From assembly GCF_023221595.1 (NCBI RefSeq), contig NZ_CP096568.1:224400-288399 (forward strand): 64,000 nucleotides of DNA, in the 5' to 3' direction. The notes under the pieces were generated by a model. It saw only the letters and a list, made by a program, of their open reading frames with translations. It had not been told where the DNA came from and made no database searches. Position numbers and translations under genes: made by a program. Below are positions 55,501 to 64,000 of this stretch, in pieces. Every line of letters starts with the position of its first letter. Position 1 is the first letter of the stretch. The DNA is from Rhodococcus qingshengii JCM 15477. GTDB taxonomy: Bacteria; Actinomycetota; Actinomycetes; Mycobacteriales; Mycobacteriaceae.

Positions 55501-57954
55501 GGGTTGGCGTATGTCGACGATGTTCGGACCGGCGAGGCTCCTATGTTTCCGCTGGCTAACAGGTTGGGATGGCGACGGACACTTGTGGGCGAATTTCAGG
55601 ACGTGAAGAAATATCGCGAGGATGCGCGTGGAATCCGCCTCGGCTACGTGCTCACTGATCCGACGCCACGCGATGGGGAAGCGCAGTTGCTCGTGGAATC
55701 GACTGCTCTCGAGCAGGTTCTCAAGGCAGCAGCACAGTCGATGTCGGATGCTCCGCAGATCGACCGAGGCACGGCACTGCGAGCCTTGTACGACGAAGGG
55801 ATCCTGATCGGCGAAGAACGCGCGGGAAAAACGCCTAGGTACACGGTCCAGCGCACTATCCATTGTGAAGATCGGCGTCAGCGATTGACCGCGTTGAGGT
55901 TGTGGAAGGTACTTGGCGATGACGATTCCGACGGAACAGGTCCCTCCGATTCCGACGGAACCGGCCCTTCAGGATCGGATGACACAAGAAATCCTGGCAG
56001 CAGCGGCAGACCTGTAGACGAAAGCCCCATACCCCGCCCCTCTCAGGTACACCATCTCTCGCACCTTTCAGACATTTTGTCAGCGAAATCCAGTCGGGGT
56101 CATGACCTACAGTCCTCCCTGCCCGATCACACGCAGAACTTGAACGAATCTGTTATCGCCGAGGAGGAGCAGGTGGCCAGCTATCACGACTCGGAAGGCT
56201 GCAGAGGGGTCGCCGAACCGATCTTCCCGGCCGCACCGTGCTCGATGTGTGGACTCACCTCACCCTTCGCGTTCGAAAAGCGCCCGATGCACATCGAGTG
56301 CTGGCTCGACAGCACGGTCAAAACTCGTGCGGTGCTGTCTGTTTCATCTCCGAATAGCGATGACATGGTGGAAAACATGTCGCCGCTGTCCGGAATATCC
56401 CTACCTTCAGACGGAAACTCAGGGAGAACTTCGACGCTCGCCAACGAAAGTCGCGCAGTAAGATTCCACCCGAAGACAACAGGCAGTGCGGCGGATCGAC
56501 GGCACTTCGCCGGGCCGGCGGGGGTACTCGACGTCGATGGATTATGGCTACCTAGCGGTGAGGTTATCGACCCCGGCCCGATCCTTCATGTGGGGCACAT
56601 TGCTGAAGTGATCCGGGCACAGAACTTCGGTACCGCAGTGAATGATCGGTGGAGCGAACCCGGGCAGATCTGGGTGACCGATACCATGGCGCGGCGGTTC
56701 GGGATCGAGACAGGGGCTCTCGGAGATGACCCGCGTAAACGTGCTGAAGAAATGCGCACGTTGACTACAGGAATCCCTTTCGTGACTGAGGCTTTGAAGG
56801 AAGGCTGGTCTCTGGGCGGAAAATTCGGTGATCGTCTGGGTACGTGGACTCGAGTGTGGCATGGCGACGAGCGCGGTGTCTGGGTAGCGTTCGTCTCGGC
56901 AATGGGTCAGGACGAATTGGACATGCCGATCCTCGCCGATGCGCCGACGCCGGCAGTGTTGGCGGCACGCTTAGCGACGTTCGCCGATGCGTTGAAGTTT
57001 CCATGGGCAATGTCTGCGTCTACTACGGGGTTCGATCTGATGATCAGCACTCGTTCGCGGGAACGAGACACGGTTTTCGCACCGTCAGAACCGGTTCCGC
57101 CGTCTCAGATGAGTAACACCGAAACTGATATCGACTGGTCACGGCCCCTGACTGCAGATGAGGCCGAGCATCTCTTTATTCACGCGTATGACCGAGGCGG
57201 ATCCCACGCCGCGGGCATCGCCAGTCTCGAACTCGGAATTGGAGATCCGCAGCATCATGAAGCCGGTGCCGTTTTCGACAAGTCTCTGCCCGGTTACTGG
57301 AAGATCGAGATTCCGGAATCCTCGGACTGGCGGTACCCGAATCCTTTGAACCCGAGAGGGCTTTCGATTAACGAGCCCAAATGGGTGACAACGCCGACCA
57401 TGCAGTATGCGCTCGAACTCGGATATGAGCCGGAAGTTCTCGAGGCGTATGTGTGGAACGAGCACGGGAGAGTTCTCGATCCTTGGTACAAGCGGATCCG
57501 GGATGCGCGTTCGGCGTTGGACCTCGATGATCCTGATGCTCAGCTCGCCCGCGATCAGCTCAAGGTTGTCTACACGCGCACTCTGGGCATGCTCGGCAGT
57601 AGCGATTTCATGAAGGGTCGGCCAGGTTATGCGCCGGAGCGGCGCCATCACATCATCGCGAAGGCCAGGGCGAATATCCTCCGTCGGGTGGTGAAGATCG
57701 GTAAGGCCAGTGGCCGTTGGCCAGTTGCCATCTCGAACGACACCGTTCTGTACGTCTCCGACAATCCTGATCCGATCGCTTCCTGGCCTGGAGAGAAAGA
57801 GACGTTAGGTCGCGGGTTCGGACAGTACAAATGGGAAGGCTCAGCCTTGCTTGCCGATCAGGTCGAGTTCTTGACTGGCAAGGGCTACCGAGGAAAAGAC
57901 CAACTCCATTTGGATTGGAATGCCGCGGACTACGCCGTCGGCGGTGATCAGTGA
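52582..57954 (+). CDS. Giant primase-helicase replication protein
   Basis: 1790 residues. An N-terminal DnaG-type zinc finger (CPVH at 39-42, KCHGC at 65-69) is followed by a TOPRIM-like region (WLLEGEKDVDTAE at about 212; IVLDRDDAG at about 256). A central ATPase has Walker A GSPGSYKTS (about 714) and an acidic pair in LYWADDV (about 764), resembling DUF927-type plasmid helicases. After a disordered, Ser/Pro-rich linker (about 1110-1330) comes a large unknown C-terminal domain. It probably primes and unwinds DNA for plasmid replication. The stop overlaps the Tpg-like gene. The start is uncertain (ATGs at 52582, 52585, 52612 and 52621). Confidence 0.82.
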   Translation: MMTLPARRGHMWSMENIRGLLESSGGMKVRSSTQLSARCPVHPDVNASLSVTWTDDGAGGKILLKCHGCSASAQDIVDALGISTSDLFDTPLPPGSSTAVLAGRSARQRTAGRRRGKLGALPKPIATKSAARELDHEWVHVTAYPYVNEEGKLVQEVIREECTSCELGRHKQFRQVFISPLGRRVKQKPHEFRAVLYRLPQILEAIDTGQTVWLLEGEKDVDTAEQLGLVATTNAQGGRSFPPECAEIFHGVTVRIVLDRDDAGWNRGIDLASLLGGVGAHVQLLLPATLEPKSDFSDHVLAGQWSGHDEFGGFIPVNAGEVAAHAYAGAVRGKHLLVEKAAAEAHAHVALITDASDSQLSFKRAKRWALESELRFESLSEAVDRCRLQAATEGSEWAGQAADEAVAAWRLARNAARGAHEIAQVPVPPLLQDPDPDEVPATQEQAASPPSGSARVLETGVSAASGGSTVQRGSAISAPTYRIVDMQLVEITTTKDGEESAKLVLGLDARIVEMEYLEAQDESFDIDLPKLMGREGIVGQKEANPPAPKQLSAVIIGYTHPDTGEFMRLRIAALDYRDCGWVESLPGPPAYDSRPSGIAKLRDALKVAGGTIARTVRFRSTGWRQTPEGEWFFVHAGGAISGEGARVAPVLLSGPLARYDLPAPIRDAARIRESFLAHSGSMLTQFPSRVSATLLGHVYRSALGPNPWVLLIVGSPGSYKTSLTSIAMHHWGELWDRRRPASSMSGNGDTLNALRIKLNSAKDALYWADDVAPTRDWGAAQKSLEEFARMVHNGESRSRSTRDGLGILDGTPPRASAVVTSEVMPRPGSGAQRMLAVPLQADEIELDKLITLDRDESRHGRALLMASFLQYLASHLDETREIASRAAAHYAESLRSSGESVRQAEAVGAIWGGWVAMTRFLLDVGALTEEEVDQTLEIVHVGLRDAITAAADPDLPSRTGARVRELIAHALRTGLAYVDDVRTGEAPMFPLANRLGWRRTLVGEFQDVKKYREDARGIRLGYVLTDPTPRDGEAQLLVESTALEQVLKAAAQSMSDAPQIDRGTALRALYDEGILIGEERAGKTPRYTVQRTIHCEDRRQRLTALRLWKVLGDDDSDGTGPSDSDGTGPSGSDDTRNPGSSGRPVDESPIPRPSQVHHLSHLSDILSAKSSRGHDLQSSLPDHTQNLNESVIAEEEQVASYHDSEGCRGVAEPIFPAAPCSMCGLTSPFAFEKRPMHIECWLDSTVKTRAVLSVSSPNSDDMVENMSPLSGISLPSDGNSGRTSTLANESRAVRFHPKTTGSAADRRHFAGPAGVLDVDGLWLPSGEVIDPGPILHVGHIAEVIRAQNFGTAVNDRWSEPGQIWVTDTMARRFGIETGALGDDPRKRAEEMRTLTTGIPFVTEALKEGWSLGGKFGDRLGTWTRVWHGDERGVWVAFVSAMGQDELDMPILADAPTPAVLAARLATFADALKFPWAMSASTTGFDLMISTRSRERDTVFAPSEPVPPSQMSNTETDIDWSRPLTADEAEHLFIHAYDRGGSHAAGIASLELGIGDPQHHEAGAVFDKSLPGYWKIEIPESSDWRYPNPLNPRGLSINEPKWVTTPTMQYALELGYEPEVLEAYVWNEHGRVLDPWYKRIRDARSALDLDDPDAQLARDQLKVVYTRTLGMLGSSDFMKGRPGYAPERRHHIIAKARANILRRVVKIGKASGRWPVAISNDTVLYVSDNPDPIASWPGEKETLGRGFGQYKWEGSALLADQVEFLTGKGYRGKDQLHLDWNAADYAVGGDQ

Positions 57955-58565
57955 TGGCACGTAAGAACACGAACAAAGATCCTGGCCGCCGCTCGACGAT
58001 CTTCGGTGCCCTCACCGGAAGGAGCGGTGCGTCGGTGTCGCCGGGACGAGGAGCTCCGGACGTTCGAGGACTGTTGCTCGCTGCGTACGGATTCAACAAG
58101 CGAGGTGGGCTCAACACTGCAGATGCAGCCAAAGACCTTGGGGTAACACAACGTACGGTTCAGCGGTGGGTAGCGACAGAGGGACACCAACGGATCGGTA
58201 AACCCAGAGCCGACACGTTGCAGAAACTGGCAAAGAAATCACGGCAAGCGGCCACGACGCAGCGCGGACGCAAAGCTGCGCTGGCATCTTTTCGAGCGAC
58301 GTCGAAAGGCAAGGCACTCGCAAATCGGGGTGGTCACCTTCGCGTACGTGGTCATCAAGGTCCGAGCGCCGCCGGTAAGACCTACAAGCGGGGCCGCCAG
58401 ATCCAACTCGAACTCACCCCCGCCGATGTCGAAGCAATGTGGTCTGCGTTCGAGCAGAACGGTGATGAAGGTGTGTCCAAGTGGATGACGAACCATGCCG
58501 ATGAGCAGTATGTCGCCGGCTGGGAATTCGAACGCATCGACGAGATGGGGATCGATCGCCCGTGA
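57954..58565 (+). CDS. Terminal-protein (Tpg)-like DNA-binding protein
   Basis: 203 residues from an ATG that shares one base with the preceding stop (TGATG). A helix-turn-helix lies at about 55-75 (TADAAKDLGVTQRTVQRWV). A basic middle region (LQKLAKKSRQAATTQRGRKA) and a C-terminal LTPADVEAMWSAFEQNGDEG ... ADEQYVAGWEFERIDEM follow. The length, order and ending recall Tpg, the protein covalently bound to the 5' ends of Streptomyces linear replicons. That would fit the telomere-like end of the window. The homology is my reading, without an alignment. Confidence 0.68.
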   Translation: MARKNTNKDPGRRSTIFGALTGRSGASVSPGRGAPDVRGLLLAAYGFNKRGGLNTADAAKDLGVTQRTVQRWVATEGHQRIGKPRADTLQKLAKKSRQAATTQRGRKAALASFRATSKGKALANRGGHLRVRGHQGPSAAGKTYKRGRQIQLELTPADVEAMWSAFEQNGDEGVSKWMTNHADEQYVAGWEFERIDEMGIDRP

Positions 58566-59194
58566 TGGCTCCTGCGGCCCCTCGTTGGACGCGCAAGCGC
58601 CTCGAAGCGATGTTGGGGACCTGCTACGGGCGTACCTCCACCGGACACGTCGATACGGCTGCCGTCGCAAATGCGGCCGGCGTCAGTGTTCGCACCGTCC
58701 AGCGATGGATGGCGGGCAGTAATCGCCAGAATGCGGCGATTCCGCACACCAGACTTCTGCAGTTGTGTCGCCCGCCGGCCGACACCCAGGAACGATCACA
58801 ACAGGCTGCTGATTATGCGAGTGAAGCGATCATGAAGATCTCTCTGCCCAAGGGGCGAGGGATCCTTTCCGCATGGCGCGAACAAGGTTGGCTGGAACCG
58901 CACGTCGTTGGAGTACTCGCATTACGCGGTCTTCCGCTTCGGCAAGTGGTGATCAGTAACGGCACTGCTCGATCGACAGCCGATTTGCGGCGGCGAGGTG
59001 AGTTGCTCGACGTCACTACTGTGCCGACACGGTTCCACGCCACTGTTCTCGTTCATGAGGTGCTCTCGCGTGTCGAACCGTGGTGTGTGCTGCCTTCTCG
59101 CGAAATCCTGACAGTCGGTAGGACTCAGGTCTGGGCTGAAGACGGTCCAGTAGTGGATCTTTCGCAGCTCGCTGTCGCCGCGGCTTTGCGCTGA
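58565..59194 (+). CDS. Second HTH protein of the replication operon
   Basis: 209 residues, with its ATG overlapping the Tpg-like stop (TGATG). An N-terminal helix-turn-helix (VDTAAVANAAGVSVRTVQRWM) is nearly the same as that of the preceding protein. The C-terminal part is unlike it (HATVLVHEVLSRVEPWCVLP). It may bind the same DNA, e.g. as a telomere-associated partner. The operon order primase-Tpg-HTH supports a replication or telomere role. Confidence 0.6.
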   Translation: MAPAAPRWTRKRLEAMLGTCYGRTSTGHVDTAAVANAAGVSVRTVQRWMAGSNRQNAAIPHTRLLQLCRPPADTQERSQQAADYASEAIMKISLPKGRGILSAWREQGWLEPHVVGVLALRGLPLRQVVISNGTARSTADLRRRGELLDVTTVPTRFHATVLVHEVLSRVEPWCVLPSREILTVGRTQVWAEDGPVVDLSQLAVAAALR

Positions 59195-59265
59195 CACCAC
59201 CCACCGTCGCGATACCGACGTATTGGAGAATCCGCCACAGTGCGAAGGCCGCGATCAATGAGAGG

Positions 59266-59784
59266 TCAGCGTGCGTCCGGGTCCAGTCCCACGCGTCTGA
59301 GTACTCGCCAGAGTTTTTCGTTGTCCAAAGTCTTGCGGTGTTCCGCGATCGCTTGGACGAGCTTTTCTATGACCTCGCGTGATCGCGGGTTGAACTGTGC
59401 TGCCCGCTCGCCTATCCAGGCCAGAGGCGCATCCTCTGCCTTGTCGATTCGGTCGAGCGCCATGACCGATTTGTCGATGAATTTCCTGGCGCGGCCTTGT
59501 TGTTTGTCATCCAACTCTCCTGCGTCGAGAGCTGCTTTAGCTTGATCCACGAAGTCTTCGAGGATGGCCGTCGCCCGATCCGCCAATTCATCGTCGAAAG
59601 CCAGCACATTCCAAAAGTTTCGCCAGTGCGCGTTGTACTTTCGCTCTGAGGATCGAGGAATCAGGTGGTCACGAAGGATGCATTCGAAAACCTCTGCATC
59701 AAGCACTCGCAGGTCGGCGGCACCGCTAAAGGCCGGCAAATCAACAGGGTTGGAGATCCTGCGCCACGGCTCTTGCTGCGTCAT
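59266..59784 (-). CDS. Hypothetical helical protein
   Basis: 172 residues, ATG at 59784. Mostly alpha-helical and acidic (DELADRATAILEDFVDQAKAAL). No domain is recognised. It converges with the replication operon and is divergent from the DUF3560 gene. Confidence 0.55.
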   Translation of the reverse strand: MTQQEPWRRISNPVDLPAFSGAADLRVLDAEVFECILRDHLIPRSSERKYNAHWRNFWNVLAFDDELADRATAILEDFVDQAKAALDAGELDDKQQGRARKFIDKSVMALDRIDKAEDAPLAWIGERAAQFNPRSREVIEKLVQAIAEHRKTLDNEKLWRVLRRVGLDPDAR

Positions 59785-59894
59785 CGGTGCGGATCCTCAT
59801 CCTCTGTACTACTGCCGTTTCAATACCCTCATCCACTTCAACACACACATGTCGGCTAGGGGCCGAAACTGCGGGGTTCCGAACACAACCTACC

Positions 59895-59955
59895 GCCCGC
59901 TGCCCCTGACCCTCACGCTGCCCCCGGCACCGTGAGGGTCAGGGGCATCTTCATC
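59895..59955. repeat. GC-rich hairpin repeat, copy 1
   Basis: GCCCCTGACCCTCACG and CGTGAGGGTCAGGGGC form a 16-bp stem around GCCCCCGGCAC. The right arm recurs (…GGCACGGCGAGGGTCAGGG) before the genes at 61650 and 62786, each time 70-110 bases ahead of the start codon. It may be a terminator shared by copied units. Confidence 0.75.
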
Positions 59956-59999
59956 GAAAGTTTCCCATATATTAGCAGGTCAGGCAGTATAATGATCAG

Positions 60000-60036
60000 T
60001 GTCCTAGTGAAGTGTGGGCGGACTGACCATCCTCCC
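60000..60036 (+). promoter_or_regulatory. Leader element 1: TGTCCTAGT box plus hairpin
   Basis: TGTCCTAGT (60000-60008), then the stem GGGCGGA / TCCTCCC (60016-60022, 60030-60036; one C-T mismatch) with loop CTGACCA. It ends 24 nt before the ATG at 60061. The same layout is found before the DprA-like and DUF4192 genes. Confidence 0.6.
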
Positions 60037-60060
60037 TCTACCGGTTATTTTGGAGTTGGC

Positions 60061-61065
60061 ATGTTGACGATTTCGCACAGCGCGGTTGATGGCACGTTGA
60101 TCGATGGAACCTCCCGCGGTGACGGTTCCGGCGAGGTACTACGGGCGCACGGGTGGCGGTGGTTTCGCAGCATTGCGATGTGGGGAATGCGGGGGAGTCG
60201 CGATCGAGCGCCACGTGTTCGCTTGATCGACATGACGGCAGATGCCTTACGGGCGCAGGGTTTCGAGGTCGAGATTTCAATCGATGCCACAGCTAGGCCG
60301 GCGGTCGAGGTTGAAGCCGATCGCATCGATCGGCAGGCGGAGCGCGTCGCTGCACTCGAACTGAAGGCGGAACGCCGCTCGGATAGAGCGGAACAGGCGT
60401 GGAAGGCGGAACATCGCGCGGTCGAAGCGCTGCCTCCCGGGGGAGAGCCGATCAAGATCGGTCATCATTCCGAACAGCGCCATCGCCGAGCACTCGATAC
60501 GGCGCACAGGCGGCTAGGTCAGGCAGTTTCCGCCCAGAATGATGCACGGCAAACGCAACGACGTGCAGAGTCCGCAGCTGCGACTACAGAGGCTCGCTAC
60601 AGCCCTGTGACGGTGAAGAACCGCATCGACAAGTTGCACGCCGATCAGCGGGCGGACCAGCGCGAGCGCGACGGACATGAACGGACGTTGTTTGTCCTGG
60701 GCGACACCAAGCAGGTCGAGCAGTTCCCACCTGCGCAAGGTGCTTACCGGGAACTGCTAGAAGGCAGGATCGCCAAGCGCGAGGACCAGATCAGTTACTG
60801 GGAAGCGGTCCGGGCTCAGCAAATCGAGTCCGGGAAGGCGACGAACTACGGTCCTGACACGATCTCGAAGGGCGATCTCGTCCAGTGGTCCGGAGGTTGG
60901 TACCCGGTTGTCCGGGTCAACAAAAAGTCTGTGACGATTCCTTCCATAGTCGGGGGGAGTTGGACTGACACCATGCCGTATCACAAGCTCAGCGGGCATA
61001 AACGTCGCGATGAAGGTGCGCAGACCGCGGCGGCCGGAACCGTCTCAGAGGAGACCTGCTCATGA
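60061..61065 (+). CDS. DUF3560-domain protein
   Basis: 334 residues from the ATG at 60061 with GGAG 6-7 nt upstream. The N-terminus is short. A charged coiled region (ERVAALELKAERRSDRAEQA) contains the DUF3560 signature PIKIGHHSEQRHRR. A C-terminal beta domain follows (ISKGDLVQWSGGWYPVVRVN). DUF3560 proteins are common on actinobacterial plasmids and phages; their function is unknown. It overlaps the next gene by 4 bases (ATGA). Confidence 0.82.
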   Translation: MLTISHSAVDGTLIDGTSRGDGSGEVLRAHGWRWFRSIAMWGMRGSRDRAPRVRLIDMTADALRAQGFEVEISIDATARPAVEVEADRIDRQAERVAALELKAERRSDRAEQAWKAEHRAVEALPPGGEPIKIGHHSEQRHRRALDTAHRRLGQAVSAQNDARQTQRRAESAAATTEARYSPVTVKNRIDKLHADQRADQRERDGHERTLFVLGDTKQVEQFPPAQGAYRELLEGRIAKREDQISYWEAVRAQQIESGKATNYGPDTISKGDLVQWSGGWYPVVRVNKKSVTIPSIVGGSWTDTMPYHKLSGHKRRDEGAQTAAAGTVSEETCS

Positions 61066-61418
61066 GTGATCATCGAACAGAAATCCACAGCGGAGAGTTT
61101 CGGCAGTCTCGGCACTACCCGGTTGCTGCGGCAGTGGAGAACGTTGCAGCGCAGTCCTTTTCGAGGTTGCACCCAGATGCGCAGTGGCCTCCGGTCAATG
61201 CACAGTTCGCCGATGTTTATCGTTTAGCCGCTTGGAGGCTTCTCACACCAATCACGGTTGTTGCAGCACTCGACTGCGCAGTGTTGACGTCGCGAGAATG
61301 GTTGTCACTCAATGAGAGTGAACAGTCAGAGTGGATCGCACAGGCACAGCGAACCAATTCGCTACTAGCGCGCACTGCGGTCGGAGCCATGACAGCGGAG
61401 AGCGTCGCTGCGATATAG
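61062..61418 (+). CDS. Hypothetical protein downstream of DUF3560
   Basis: 118 residues; its ATG overlaps the DUF3560 stop, so the two are co-translated. It is a soluble helical protein without recognised motifs (RLAAWRLLTPITVVAALDCA). Terminator-like sequence follows at 61466. Confidence 0.6.
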   Translation: MSDHRTEIHSGEFRQSRHYPVAAAVENVAAQSFSRLHPDAQWPPVNAQFADVYRLAAWRLLTPITVVAALDCAVLTSREWLSLNESEQSEWIAQAQRTNSLLARTAVGAMTAESVAAI

Positions 61419-61465
61419 CGGAGCCTGCGCCATCCCGAGGATTCGCCGGCCACCACCCATGGATC

Positions 61466-61500
61466 AGGCCTGGTCGCGCAACCGCGCGACCAGGCCTTCT
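61466..61500 (+). terminator. Terminator after the DUF3560 unit
   Basis: AGGCCTGGTCGCGC (61466-61479) and GCGCGACCAGGCCT (61484-61497) form a perfect 14-bp stem with loop AACC, followed by TCTTC. Confidence 0.88.
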
Positions 61501-61504
61501 TCCA

Positions 61505-61552
61505 TGTCTCGCCCCGCCCCCGGCACGGCGAGGGTCAGGGGCATTTCGGACC
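61505..61552. repeat. GC-rich repeat, copy 2
   Basis: CTCGCCCCGCCCCCGGCACG, continuing GCGAGGGTCAGGGGCATTTC, matches copies at 59895 and 62639. It keeps an inverted repeat (CTCGCC / GGCGAG). Confidence 0.75.
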
Positions 61553-61585
61553 AATTCCGTCGGTGCTGTCGGTTAGTGTTTGTGC

Positions 61586-61623
61586 TGTCCTAGTTCGTTT
61601 TCGGTGAGCGTGACCAGCTCACC
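61586..61623 (+). promoter_or_regulatory. Leader element 2: TGTCCTAGT box plus hairpin
   Basis: TGTCCTAGT (61586-61594), then the perfect 7-bp stem GGTGAGC / GCTCACC (61603-61609, 61617-61623) with loop GTGACCA, ending 26 nt before the GTG at 61650. AAAGGGG follows as ribosome-binding site. Confidence 0.65.
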
Positions 61624-61649
61624 TTGTTCCCACTCAAAGGGGATCTGTC

Positions 61650-62573
61650 GTGGTGTTTGTTTCAGTACCGAGTGTCGATAGTGCAATTTTCGATAGCAGG
61701 CGTGAGGCGTGGGCATTTTTGTCCGTGGTCTCGGACGGGCCATCCGCGGCGTTGGTCGCTTTGGTCGAGGAGCTCGGAGTCGAAGAGGCTGCAGCAGCTG
61801 TTAGGGACCGAGTGCCCGTCGAGGGATTGCCTCTGGGATCTGAGGATCTACGGCGAGGCGATCGGGCCGCGCAGTTCCTCGAGGTCACCGAGCATCTCGG
61901 CGGGCGGTTCGTCACTCCCGACGACGCGGAGTGGCCACGCGAACGATTTAGCGCCCTCACCGGCGCAGACGGGGATGATGTGAGCCCTCTTGGGCTCTGG
62001 GTCCTCGGCACTGGTTCCCTGCACTCCGATCGGGGCATGATCGCGATCGCGGGAAGCCGGGCGTCGACGGCATACGGCGAACATGTGACCTCCGAGATTG
62101 CCGGTGACCTGTCCGCTACGGGTTGGACTGTCGTTTCGACAGGATCCTTCGGAATTGCTTCTGCCGCACATCGTGCTGCCTTGGCAGTGGGCGGTGCGAC
62201 GATCGCAGTCACAGCAGCAAGCATCGACCGGGCTCATCCCGCTGCACATGAGCGAATGTTCCGAGACATCTCGGAGCATGGCGGCCTTGTGGTCAGTGAG
62301 TACCCGCCCACACACTCAGTCCCCTCTCGGCATCGTTCGCTCGCGCTGAATCGCTTGATCGCCGCCCTGTCTCAGGCGTCGGTGGTTGTAGAGACCGGTT
62401 GGCGCGGCGGTTCTCGTGACATTTTGACGTGGGCGTCCAAGCTCGGCCGACCCGCGCTGGCGGTACCGGGTCCGGTGACCTCGGCCGCCTCCGAAGGGTG
62501 TCACCGAGCGATCAGGGAGGGTCACGCTGCCTTGGTGACGAATAGTGCGGACGTCGTCGCCGCGATCGCCTAA
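61650..62573 (+). CDS. dprA: DprA/Smf-like DNA-processing protein
   Basis: 307 residues from a GTG with AAAGGGG 7-8 nt upstream. The Rossmann-fold DprA pattern is present: MIAIAGSRASTAYG (about 129-142), SFGIASAAHRAAL (about 168), GGLVVSEYPPTHSVPSRHR (about 210) and RPALAVPGPV (about 270). The Arg-Asn of RNR motifs is LALNRLIA here. DprA protects incoming single-stranded DNA and loads RecA; plasmid copies may help establishment after transfer or act in defence. Start and length are normal for the core domain. Confidence 0.88.
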   Translation: MVFVSVPSVDSAIFDSRREAWAFLSVVSDGPSAALVALVEELGVEEAAAAVRDRVPVEGLPLGSEDLRRGDRAAQFLEVTEHLGGRFVTPDDAEWPRERFSALTGADGDDVSPLGLWVLGTGSLHSDRGMIAIAGSRASTAYGEHVTSEIAGDLSATGWTVVSTGSFGIASAAHRAALAVGGATIAVTAASIDRAHPAAHERMFRDISEHGGLVVSEYPPTHSVPSRHRSLALNRLIAALSQASVVVETGWRGGSRDILTWASKLGRPALAVPGPVTSAASEGCHRAIREGHAALVTNSADVVAAIA

Positions 62574-62595
62574 ACCCCTCCCCGCAGACGCGGGG

Positions 62596-62634
62596 AAGGC
62601 CCTGGTCCGCACCCTCTGGACCAGGGCCTTTCTC
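62596..62634 (+). terminator. Terminator after the DprA-like gene
   Basis: AAGGCCCTGGTCC (62596-62608) pairs with GGACCAGGGCCTT (62618-62630), perfect 13 bp, loop of 9 bases, followed by TCTC. Confidence 0.88.
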
Positions 62635-62638
62635 GCGT

Positions 62639-62680
62639 CTCGCCCTGCCCCCGGCACGGCGAGGGCAAGCGGCATTTCAC
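62639..62680. repeat. GC-rich repeat, copy 3
   Basis: CTCGCCCTGCCCCCGGCACG followed by GCGAGGGCAAGCGGCATTTC: the third, more diverged copy of the repeat at 59895 and 61505. Confidence 0.75.
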
Positions 62681-62730
62681 CGCCGTTCATGGCTCTTTCT
62701 GTCGGAGGCATGTGGCAGTGTCATCGGTGT

Positions 62731-62762
62731 TGTCCTAGTCCGGTGCGCCTCACCAGCGCACC
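62731..62762 (+). promoter_or_regulatory. Leader element 3: TGTCCTAGT box plus hairpin
   Basis: TGTCCTAGT (62731-62739), then the perfect stem GGTGCGC / GCGCACC (62742-62748, 62756-62762) with loop CTCACCA, ending 23 nt before the GTG at 62786. Compared with element 2 an A-T pair is replaced by C-G, so pairing is conserved. AAAGGGG follows. Confidence 0.65.
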
Positions 62763-62785
62763 CCCACGACCCAAAGGGGTTACCT

Positions 62786-63766
62786 GTGAGTACTTTTCGT
62801 TTGTCTTCGCCGTCCGATTGCGTTGCCGGTGCTGTTGCGCTCGGCGGTCATATTCCTGTCGATGAGGTGGTTGTGATCGCCCTCGATCTCGAGCCGATGC
62901 CGGTTGCGATGATCAAGCTGACTGATGTCGAGTCGGGGCGAGTTCTGGCGAATCTGGAGGGCGCCACTCCGTTCGCCCAGTGCCGCGAAATGTTGGTAGT
63001 GGTGTTCGGGCCGGTTGAGCGTGGCGATGCTGTGGGTGAGGTGTTCGAGCAGTTCCGACCGGATGCGGTTACACCGGTGTACGTCTTCACCGAGGGTGTC
63101 GTTCGCCGGTGGCACGGCGTCGGATCGCTCGCGTTGCAGGCCGGTGACCAGATGGATTTGCGGTCGCATCCGATCGTGTTGGAGGCGCAGTCACTCGGCG
63201 TGGCCACGCTGCAGACTCGTGCGCAGATGCGCGCAGCTTTCGAACCGGCTCAGTTCGGCGCAGAGCGCGCCGCAACGGTCGCGCAAGGTTTCGATCAGCA
63301 GCGAGTGAAATTGGCGGCCATGGATCCACGCGGGGCAGCCGAACTCGCGTTCACCAGTGGATTAGCGCCGTATATCGGTCGAGCGAAGAATGACGGGGGA
63401 ATCGTCGTCACGGACGAACATGCAGCGCTTATCGCGGCCGCGATGCACGATGCGACTGTCCGTGATCTGTTGTTCGTACATGTGACGGACAAGAACGCCG
63501 ATGCCGCCGCTGAGATGTTGCGGCAAGTAGGGGCACTACTGCCCGCCAACCTTGCCGGTCCGGTGATCATCATCGGCGCGATATTCCATTGGGTGGCGCG
63601 TCATGCGGCGCTTTCTCGCGAGGCCCTCATCGTCGGGCGCACCCTCGATCCGGCTCATTCCTTCGGGCAGTTGTTCGAGCGCGCACTCGACTTCGGAATG
63701 AATCCGGCGCTCTGGGACCAACTGCGCACGGCGGCGGTAACAGCGAGCACTCGAACCGGAAGATAA
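62786..63766 (+). CDS. DUF4192-domain protein
   Basis: 326 residues from a GTG with AAAGGGG 7 nt upstream. The DUF4192 beginning is clear (DCVAGAVALGGHIPVDEVVV), followed by conserved blocks such as VVVFGPV and the C-terminal helical part (LIAAAMHDATVRDLLFVHV). DUF4192 is a widespread actinobacterial family of unknown function, frequent on plasmids. It stands alone and is followed by two terminators. Confidence 0.85.
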   Translation: MSTFRLSSPSDCVAGAVALGGHIPVDEVVVIALDLEPMPVAMIKLTDVESGRVLANLEGATPFAQCREMLVVVFGPVERGDAVGEVFEQFRPDAVTPVYVFTEGVVRRWHGVGSLALQAGDQMDLRSHPIVLEAQSLGVATLQTRAQMRAAFEPAQFGAERAATVAQGFDQQRVKLAAMDPRGAAELAFTSGLAPYIGRAKNDGGIVVTDEHAALIAAAMHDATVRDLLFVHVTDKNADAAAEMLRQVGALLPANLAGPVIIIGAIFHWVARHAALSREALIVGRTLDPAHSFGQLFERALDFGMNPALWDQLRTAAVTASTRTGR

Positions 63767-63773
63767 CGATTCG

Positions 63774-63822
63774 GTGGTGCCGTCCCGATCAGCCAAAGGA
63801 TGGCACCACCACTTTCGATTGC
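63774..63822 (+). terminator. Stem-loop after the DUF4192 gene
   Basis: GGTGGTGCC pairs with GGCACCACC across about 20 bases and is followed by ACTTTC. Confidence 0.65.
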
Positions 63823-63837
63823 GGCGCAACCAAAAAC

Positions 63838-63864
63838 GGCGCGCACATTTTTTGTGCGCGCCTT
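63838..63864. terminator. Strong terminator-like hairpin near the window end
   Basis: GGCGCGCACA (63838-63847), loop TTTTT, TGTGCGCGCC (63853-63862), then TTCT. Perfect 10-bp GC-rich stem. Confidence 0.82.
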
Positions 63865-63905
63865 CTCTTGGAATCTTTTTTGCCACAACGAAAAGCAGCC
63901 ACGAG

Positions 63906-64000
63906 TCCGGCGCGCAGCGAGTAGGACTTCCGTCATCAGGGCGGCTTGCCGCCCGCGCCCTTCCGGTTCCGGGCGCAGCCCGGAACTACGGCCCCGAAGG
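63906..64000. other. Telomere-like palindrome cluster (right end of a linear replicon?)
   Basis: Successive hairpins: CGC-GCA-GCG inside GTCC...GGAC (63906-63928); GGGCGGC-TT-GCCGCCC (63939-63954); GTTCCGGGC-GCA-GCCCGGAAC (63966-63986); and an outer CCTTC...GAAGG (63959-64000). Two loops show GCGCAGC, the heptamer that forms tight GCA loops at the 3' ends of Streptomyces linear DNA; the orientation is that expected for a right end. The Tpg-like gene 6 kb away supports this. The true end would lie just past the window. Confidence 0.6.

Follow-up and report, generated by a model that had tools for sequence, protein, structure and literature searches.

The MS2 coat-protein translational operator is a small hairpin with a conserved loop near the ribosome-binding site, and Frpo-type promoters sit in a stable duplex that the template strand forms on folding. 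Mycobacterial PafBC promoters follow the published P1 consensus tTGTCRgtg - 8 nt - TannnT (excerpts of PMC5656591), and PafBC is described as activated by single-stranded DNA (ssDNA) in excerpts of PMC11804915. The present analysis concerns the terminal 64 kb of contig C6 of Rhodococcus qingshengii JCM 15477 (G000:C6:224400-288399 of 288399 bp; 64,000 nucleotides, hereafter the window), in which a DUF3560 gene, a DprA-like gene and a DUF4192 gene are each preceded by a leader with a GC-rich repeat, a TGTCC box and a hairpin. Box and hairpin are most plausibly the 5' leader of an mRNA, which on this and related plasmids mostly lies behind a promoter match of the PafBC type.

The original prediction had described a common order of repeat, box, hairpin and start codon in the three leaders. 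This order was recovered, with an exact box and a GC-rich repeat in every leader and the loops CTGACCA, GTGACCA and CTCACCA. The 7-bp stems that it had assigned to all three were complete in leaders 2 and 3 only:

60016..60036, + strand: hairpin 1, GGGCGGA-CTGACCA-TCCTCCC, 6 of 7 pairs with a C.T mismatch in mid-stem
61603..61623, + strand: hairpin 2, GGTGAGC-GTGACCA-GCTCACC, 7 of 7 pairs
62742..62762, + strand: hairpin 3, GGTGCGC-CTCACCA-GCGCACC, 7 of 7 pairs

Elements 2 and 3 do differ by the compensating change from A-T to C-G. The stems end 24, 26 and 23 nt ahead of the start codons of leaders 1, 2 and 3, within the predicted 23-26 nt. The proposed constancy of this distance was not upheld in relatives: among 13 elements checked, 12 have an open frame (118-366 aa) that begins about 19-50 nt downstream; the remaining one, L127, has a short frame only. 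A U run directly past the stem was absent at all three window hairpins, which argues against intrinsic terminators or attenuators.

At eight end-proximal loci of homologous plasmid leaders (L001-L006, L008 and L016) the order of box, hairpin and start was kept with different stems, and a ninth locus (L007) lacks one loop base. The stem pairs of these relatives include GGGTGAGT/GCTCACCC, GGGTGAAT/GTTCGCCC and GGGCGGA/TCTGCCC. Alignment A1, consisting of 15 leaders collected through homology of their genes, had 91.7% of its cells paired and a covariation of 0.565 in comparison to 0.211 after shuffling (reached by 0 of 500 shuffles); both-side changes occurred in 5 of 8 pairs, a count equalled by 143 of 500 shuffles. 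In alignment A3, which comprises 20 more diverse leaders and was built with MAFFT without reference to structure, 95.7% of the cells were paired. Its covariation of 0.792 lay beyond all 500 shuffles (0.206) with no slid control near it (best 0.176), and compensating changes on both sides affected all seven pairs (2 of 500 shuffles), to be read with the reservation that kinship inflates pair-change counts and that the shuffles leave relatedness in. Alignment A4 gave 0.721 vs 0.197 for 47 distinct rows, which had been fitted to the model. Strongly divergent stems were found in L092 (GGCGCGA/TCGCGCC), L119 (GCCGCGA/TTGCGGG) and L042 (CTGCCGA/CCGGCGG round a shifted loop), and because stems so unlike each other occur, the variation reflects more than one event. 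The original prediction of a structured, covarying element had named absent stem conservation on related plasmids as its refutation; the stems are conserved there. As a separate observation, plasmid pROB01 carries a second, degenerate copy with extra bases separating box and hairpin, which overlaps the end of an annotated tnpB (L006:50-183).

The orientation of wobble pairs points to the folding strand. Read on the sense strand, G.T and T.G pairs outnumbered A.C pairs by 21 vs 4 in A3, by 21 vs 4 on 23 representative hairpins (<75% identity) and by 47 vs 8 on the 47 distinct A4 rows. Since G.T wobbles exceed A.C, the gene-sense, mRNA-like strand is probably the one that folds, hence RNA. The loop core UGACC was kept in 40 of 46 distinct hairpins and in 20 of 23 representatives, the exceptions being TCACC (2), TGACT (1), TGACG (1), CGACC (1) and one deletion, while the stem columns vary and stem length ranges from ~6 to 14 bp. 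These features bear on two rival explanations. An inverted repeat common to several genes of one plasmid and situated at ~+10 to +40 of the predicted promoter, a classic repressor site, could be a DNA operator bound by a plasmid repressor, with the RNA hairpin as a by-product. We regard this as unlikely, given that the half-sites change compensatorily while the asymmetric spacer TGACC is almost fixed, that wobble pairs lean to one strand and that stem length varies. Equally unlikely in our view is a hairpin that merely stabilises the mRNA 5' end with no specific factor: its position near the predicted 5' end and the freedom of much of the stem sequence would suit such a function, for which a nearly invariant UGACC loop and a conserved box are needless.

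Upstream of the box, most leaders contain a match to TTGTCRGTG-N8-TAnnnT, the PafBC-dependent, RecA-independent promoter of the DNA-damage response. For scoring, 10 gapped or partial rows (leader 1 included) and 12 repeated heads were dropped from the 53 A4 rows. Among the 31 distinct full-length heads left, 28 matched at least 9 of 12 promoter positions, the shuffled mean being 4.1 (12/12, n=3; 11, n=13; 10, n=8; 9, n=4; 8, n=1; 6, n=2). The corresponding features of the window are:

59988..59993, + strand: -10-like TATAAT of leader 1, 6 nt ahead of the box, without a good PafBC motif
60000..60008, + strand: box 1, TGTCCTAGT, 6 nt past the -10
61557..61579, + strand: PafBC-type promoter match of leader 2, CCGTCGGTG-N8-TAGTGT, 10 of 12 positions
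61586..61594, + strand: box 2, 6 nt past the -10, where the transcript is predicted to start
62699..62721, + strand: PafBC-type promoter match of leader 3, CTGTCGGAG-N8-CAGTGT, 9 of 12 positions
62731..62739, + strand: box 3, 9 nt past the -10-like CAGTGT

In most copies the box begins 5-6 nt past the -10, the 9 nt of element 3 being longer, and owing to this distance it is the predicted transcript start, most readily taken as the mRNA 5' end. The exact motif copies of the host chromosome fit such a start: each opens a frame, with the ATG 7 nt past the -10 in three of four and 6 nt in the fourth. From the -10 position and the proximity of the gene, the element is predicted to lie inside the gene's transcript. 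The host also has pafA (TIGR03686; 786.6 bits vs a cut-off of 551.3), with two WYL-domain genes after it that by position are presumably pafB and pafC; PafBC may drive the leader promoters.

In a less circular test, the promoter and box pattern was searched without the hairpin over a collection of species genomes, and 20 stretches were found. In the 11 from Rhodococcus and Rhodococcoides, all 14 matches lead into a UGACC hairpin (~5 distinct types), and none of the nine others (Gordonia, Nonomuraea, Pedobacter, Clostridia and others) has one; by a rough estimate, nine is about the number expected by chance. Locus L030 (1501-1629) carries a PafBC-type promoter with 12 of 12 positions, followed by another kind of hairpin, which has no UGACC loop; the sequence past this promoter resembles what we take to be a LexA box.

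These promoters were unforeseen in the original prediction, which had suggested either an RNA element at the level of translation or an RNA/DNA site read by a single regulator. A structured, covarying element that probably folds on the sense strand is supported; coordination is probably also transcriptional, because a PafBC-type promoter lies upstream of most copies and the box stands at the expected start. Double-strand promoters of this type also speak against a site that acts as ssDNA promoter or priming site (Frpo or ssi type) during plasmid entry. Such a site would be in keeping with the common orientation of the genes, with the presence of several copies on a plasmid and with DUF932 (TIGR03299) among the targets. 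However, four of four predicted template-strand folds had no stable duplex over both promoter motifs (z -2.2 to +0.4), with only short pairings in L002 and L016, and the wobbles favour the non-template strand; this explanation appears quite improbable.

The exact box TGTCCTAGT occurs three times in the window (60000, 61586 and 62731), every time inside a leader. With up to one mismatch there were 15 window matches (3 exact) vs 6.9 expected, a number reached by 1 of 100 shuffles. This form is restricted to the present plasmid type, and other carriers have TGTCCCAGTTGAT, TGTCCTGTTGA or TGTTCGTAAGTCC. A pairing between the box and either the ribosome-binding site or the loop was dropped, since it amounted to 3-4 bp with no covariation by eye. 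Allowing up to 3 mismatches, the window contains three copies of the GC-rich repeat GCCCCCGGCACSGYGAGGG, one ahead of each leader, vs 0.21 expected:

59902..59946, no strand assigned: GC-rich palindrome with 15-bp arms ahead of leader 1, from sequence and repeat family, terminator-like in its presumed role
61508..61532, no strand assigned: GC-rich repeat with a short inverted repeat ahead of leader 2, from sequence and repeat family
62647..62665, no strand assigned: GC-rich repeat ahead of leader 3, from repeat family

An intergenic GC-rich palindrome recurs upstream of leaders in the window (59920, 61516 and 62647) and in L002, L016 and L040, in relatives as GTCCCCGGCACCGGGTGTGCCGGGGAC and variants; these palindromes are probably terminators.

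The three genes behind the window leaders are all oriented toward the end of the replicon and are listed here with adjoining features:

60061..61065, + strand: DUF3560 gene (Pfam PF12083, 2.1e-18)
61062..61418, + strand: 118-aa open reading frame that overlaps the DUF3560 gene at its end, without Pfam, NCBIfam or PADLOC match
61650..62573, + strand: DprA-like gene (Pfam PF02481, DNA_processg_A, 2.8e-48; under the NCBIfam dprA cut-off)
62786..63766, + strand: DUF4192 gene (Pfam PF13830, 1.9e-19)
63767..64000, no strand assigned: terminal part of the linear replicon; the window and contig C6 end at the same position, and the best relatives lie ~200 bp from record ends

The DprA-like protein (61650-62570) also matches the ShosA and PsyrA models of PADLOC (4.8e-35 and 7.3e-23), which may reflect just the common DprA domain. 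The R. qingshengii plasmid NZ_CP054209.1 (288,048 bp) is identical over the 4,001 bases compared (59800-63800), located ~200 bp off its record end, and the linear plasmids pBD2 and pRHL2 are among the relatives of the window end. No terminal inverted repeat was found when the first 6 kb of the plasmid were compared with the last 6 kb.

As had been proposed, DUF3560, DprA-like and DUF4192 genes have one element in common, both on this plasmid and on its relatives; it is not tied to every DUF3560 gene, because seven plasmid loci with such a gene (L009, L011-L015 and L017) have no copy (best E 0.17 in search R2). Further targets are a DUF932/TIGR03299 gene, a clamp-domain protein (DNA_pol3_beta_2, 29.1 bits vs a cut-off of 27), a DUF4192 gene within the four-copy cluster L119 and an ATPase-like gene; the L040 relative of the latter has sub-threshold matches to AAA_3/AAA_5. 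The ATPase-like gene also follows the fourth copy of the present plasmid (C6:80742, L125), where it looks broken (159 aa vs 366 aa in L121). A family of ~220-250 aa was recognised by eye in L036, L119, L122 and L123; three members tested had no Pfam match. Locus L127 (G230:C2:425897) holds a leader copy ahead of an apparently disrupted gene of this family.

The element is narrowly and patchily distributed, as expected of a plasmid trait. With search R1 at E 0.01, matches came from 10 of the 301 genomes of the family; in one of these (G300, L030) the promoter is present but the UGACC hairpin is missing. Search R2 matched 17 of 401 family genomes from four genera at 5e-4, of which G157 is apparently chance, and, within the genus, 10 of 28 genomes at 0.01, seven of them below 1e-4; those near E 0.002 lacked the UGACC hairpin where inspected. 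At 1e-4 it matched 2 of 397 order and 3 of 296 class genomes. Apart from the own genome, these are G157 and G914, apparently chance matches inside coding sequence without a start site; the larger searches ran stricter filters, so that weak matches drop out. Carriers by name are Rhodococcus and Rhodococcoides, and a convincing copy also occurs in G045 (L123), from a further genus of the family. A loose pattern matched 65 of 397 order-level genomes, with a chance look among the matches listed. In viral contigs a loose scan gave at least 120 stretches; among the 80 loci examined one paired 6 of 7 positions and was taken as chance, and a stricter pattern gave none. Many copies lie ~0.3-5 kb from contig ends, as a telomere-associated repeat for end replication of linear plasmids, unrelated to expression, would. 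Such an origin is highly improbable in view of copies far from ends (G000:C6:80742 of 288399; four in G287:C104 at 58.8-64.2 of 85.7 kb; G275:C23 at 48-50 of 283 kb), which already disfavour it, and of the open frames that follow 12 of 13 elements within ~50 nt.

The leader L017 of a Mycobacterium intracellulare subsp. chimaera plasmid (NZ_CP015273.1) was considered as a relative for its TGACC hairpin and rejected, as its ~370-nt fold is a different architecture. Eight co-oriented copies of this ~370-nt leader stand upstream of mobF (L017:11930-21511), seven directly ahead of annotated gene starts (including DUF4192 and DUF932) and one ahead of an ATG upstream of the annotated start. The two copies that were folded each formed a single large hairpin with interruptions (z -5.0 and -5.4). 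The leader is a candidate ssDNA-promoter or EGeRS1-like element.

Building on the hairpin, its covariation, the sense-strand bias, the conserved loop, the promoter match, the spacing and the gene set as seen in the sequences, we favour, with moderate confidence, PafBC-activated transcription combined with a post-transcriptional layer read through the loop. Each leader would comprise the promoter and 5' untranslated region of one gene. Host PafBC, described as activated by ssDNA, would redirect sigma-A RNA polymerase to the PafBC-type promoter of most copies, and transcription would start at or adjoining the TGTCC box, so that the mRNA opens with the box, followed by the hairpin of ~7 bp or more. 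We infer that the UGACC loop, immediately ahead of the ribosome-binding site, is recognised by a trans-acting factor that tunes ribosome loading or the stability of the mRNA; hairpin control of translation, its direction and a role in plasmid entry would follow from this proposal. The genes under this control would constitute a small regulon of the plasmid, serving to process DNA and probably to establish the plasmid.

Second hairpins at the ribosome-binding sequence were predicted by RNA folding in two window leaders:

61626..61644, + strand: second predicted hairpin with part of the ribosome-binding sequence AAAGGGG
62769..62780, + strand: predicted ACCC-AAAG-GGGT hairpin over the ribosome-binding sequence

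Similar ones cover part of this sequence in L002 (4560, 5747), L016 (4659) and L092. They are not general among the leaders, which counts against the favoured explanation together with several further points. No partner protein for the loop was found. The conserved hairpin lies within the minimum-energy fold in just 11 of 16 whole leaders (reading by eye), and z-scores of whole-leader folds are weak (-1.9 to +1.6). Leader 1 and the plasmid's fourth copy have no PafBC motif, leaders 2 and 3 are weaker matches, and L040 and L109 score just 6 of 12 positions. The DUF3560 loci without a copy belong here as well. Selection also contributes: 7 of the 20 A3 rows came from search R1, whose query contains the hairpin, and the R2 query covers promoter columns, so that later matches are enriched for promoter plus hairpin.

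The common hairpin, elsewhere mostly behind what resembles a DNA-damage-inducible promoter, suggests a shared switch for genes that a plasmid may need on damage or on DNA arrival. Plasmid entry is a plausible trigger, because PafBC is activated by ssDNA and because disruption of pafB or pafC hampered conjugation recipients in earlier work cited in PMC5656591, as excerpts of that paper report. Tentatively, and with more doubt than confidence, we envisage a two-layer establishment switch in which incoming ssDNA activates host PafBC and with it the DNA-processing genes, and the UGACC element and its factor limit the burst once the plasmid is established. If true, a family of structured leaders would be added to Rhodococcus-type plasmids, plasmid genes of obscure function (DUF3560, DUF4192 and DUF932) would be joined in one regulon, and plasmids would be seen to exploit the ssDNA-sensing damage regulator of their host. 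The leader could then serve as a marker to find establishment-type genes on these plasmids.

In line with the original prediction, which could name no described element with such a loop, no matching Rfam family was found over window positions 57000-64000, where seven weak matches all stayed under gathering scores and none fell on the hairpins; among the open-licence papers listed by literature searches, none was recognised as describing the element or regulon. The closest described systems each share part of its traits. Like the MS2-type phage coat-protein operators, it is a small hairpin near the ribosome-binding site with a conserved loop and a freer stem; in contrast to them it lies upstream of that site, and homology is not implied. 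EGeRS1 of the establishment genes of pLS20-family plasmids is likewise a conserved sequence rich in inverted repeats ahead of several plasmid operons with a supposed entry role, but spans 400-600 bp on Bacillus plasmids (excerpts of PMC8708921), whereas the present element is a compact covarying hairpin of ~70 nt with a recognisable promoter. Leading regions have ssDNA promoters of the Frpo type, also repeated ahead of co-oriented plasmid genes (excerpts of PMC11541004); here no hairpin duplex holds the promoter in the predicted folds of four leaders, and it is probably the sense strand that folds. With the mycobacterial PafBC-dependent (P1 or RecA-NDp) promoters the element shares the TTGTCRGTG-N8-TAnnnT motif with an equal 8-nt spacer, in a host with pafA and two WYL genes. 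Three of the four exact chromosomal copies pass into an ATG 7 nt past the -10, whereas the plasmid copies, for which PafBC control is predicted, have a structured leader instead. The combination of a structured 5' leader with a known promoter type, and its plasmid setting, are new.

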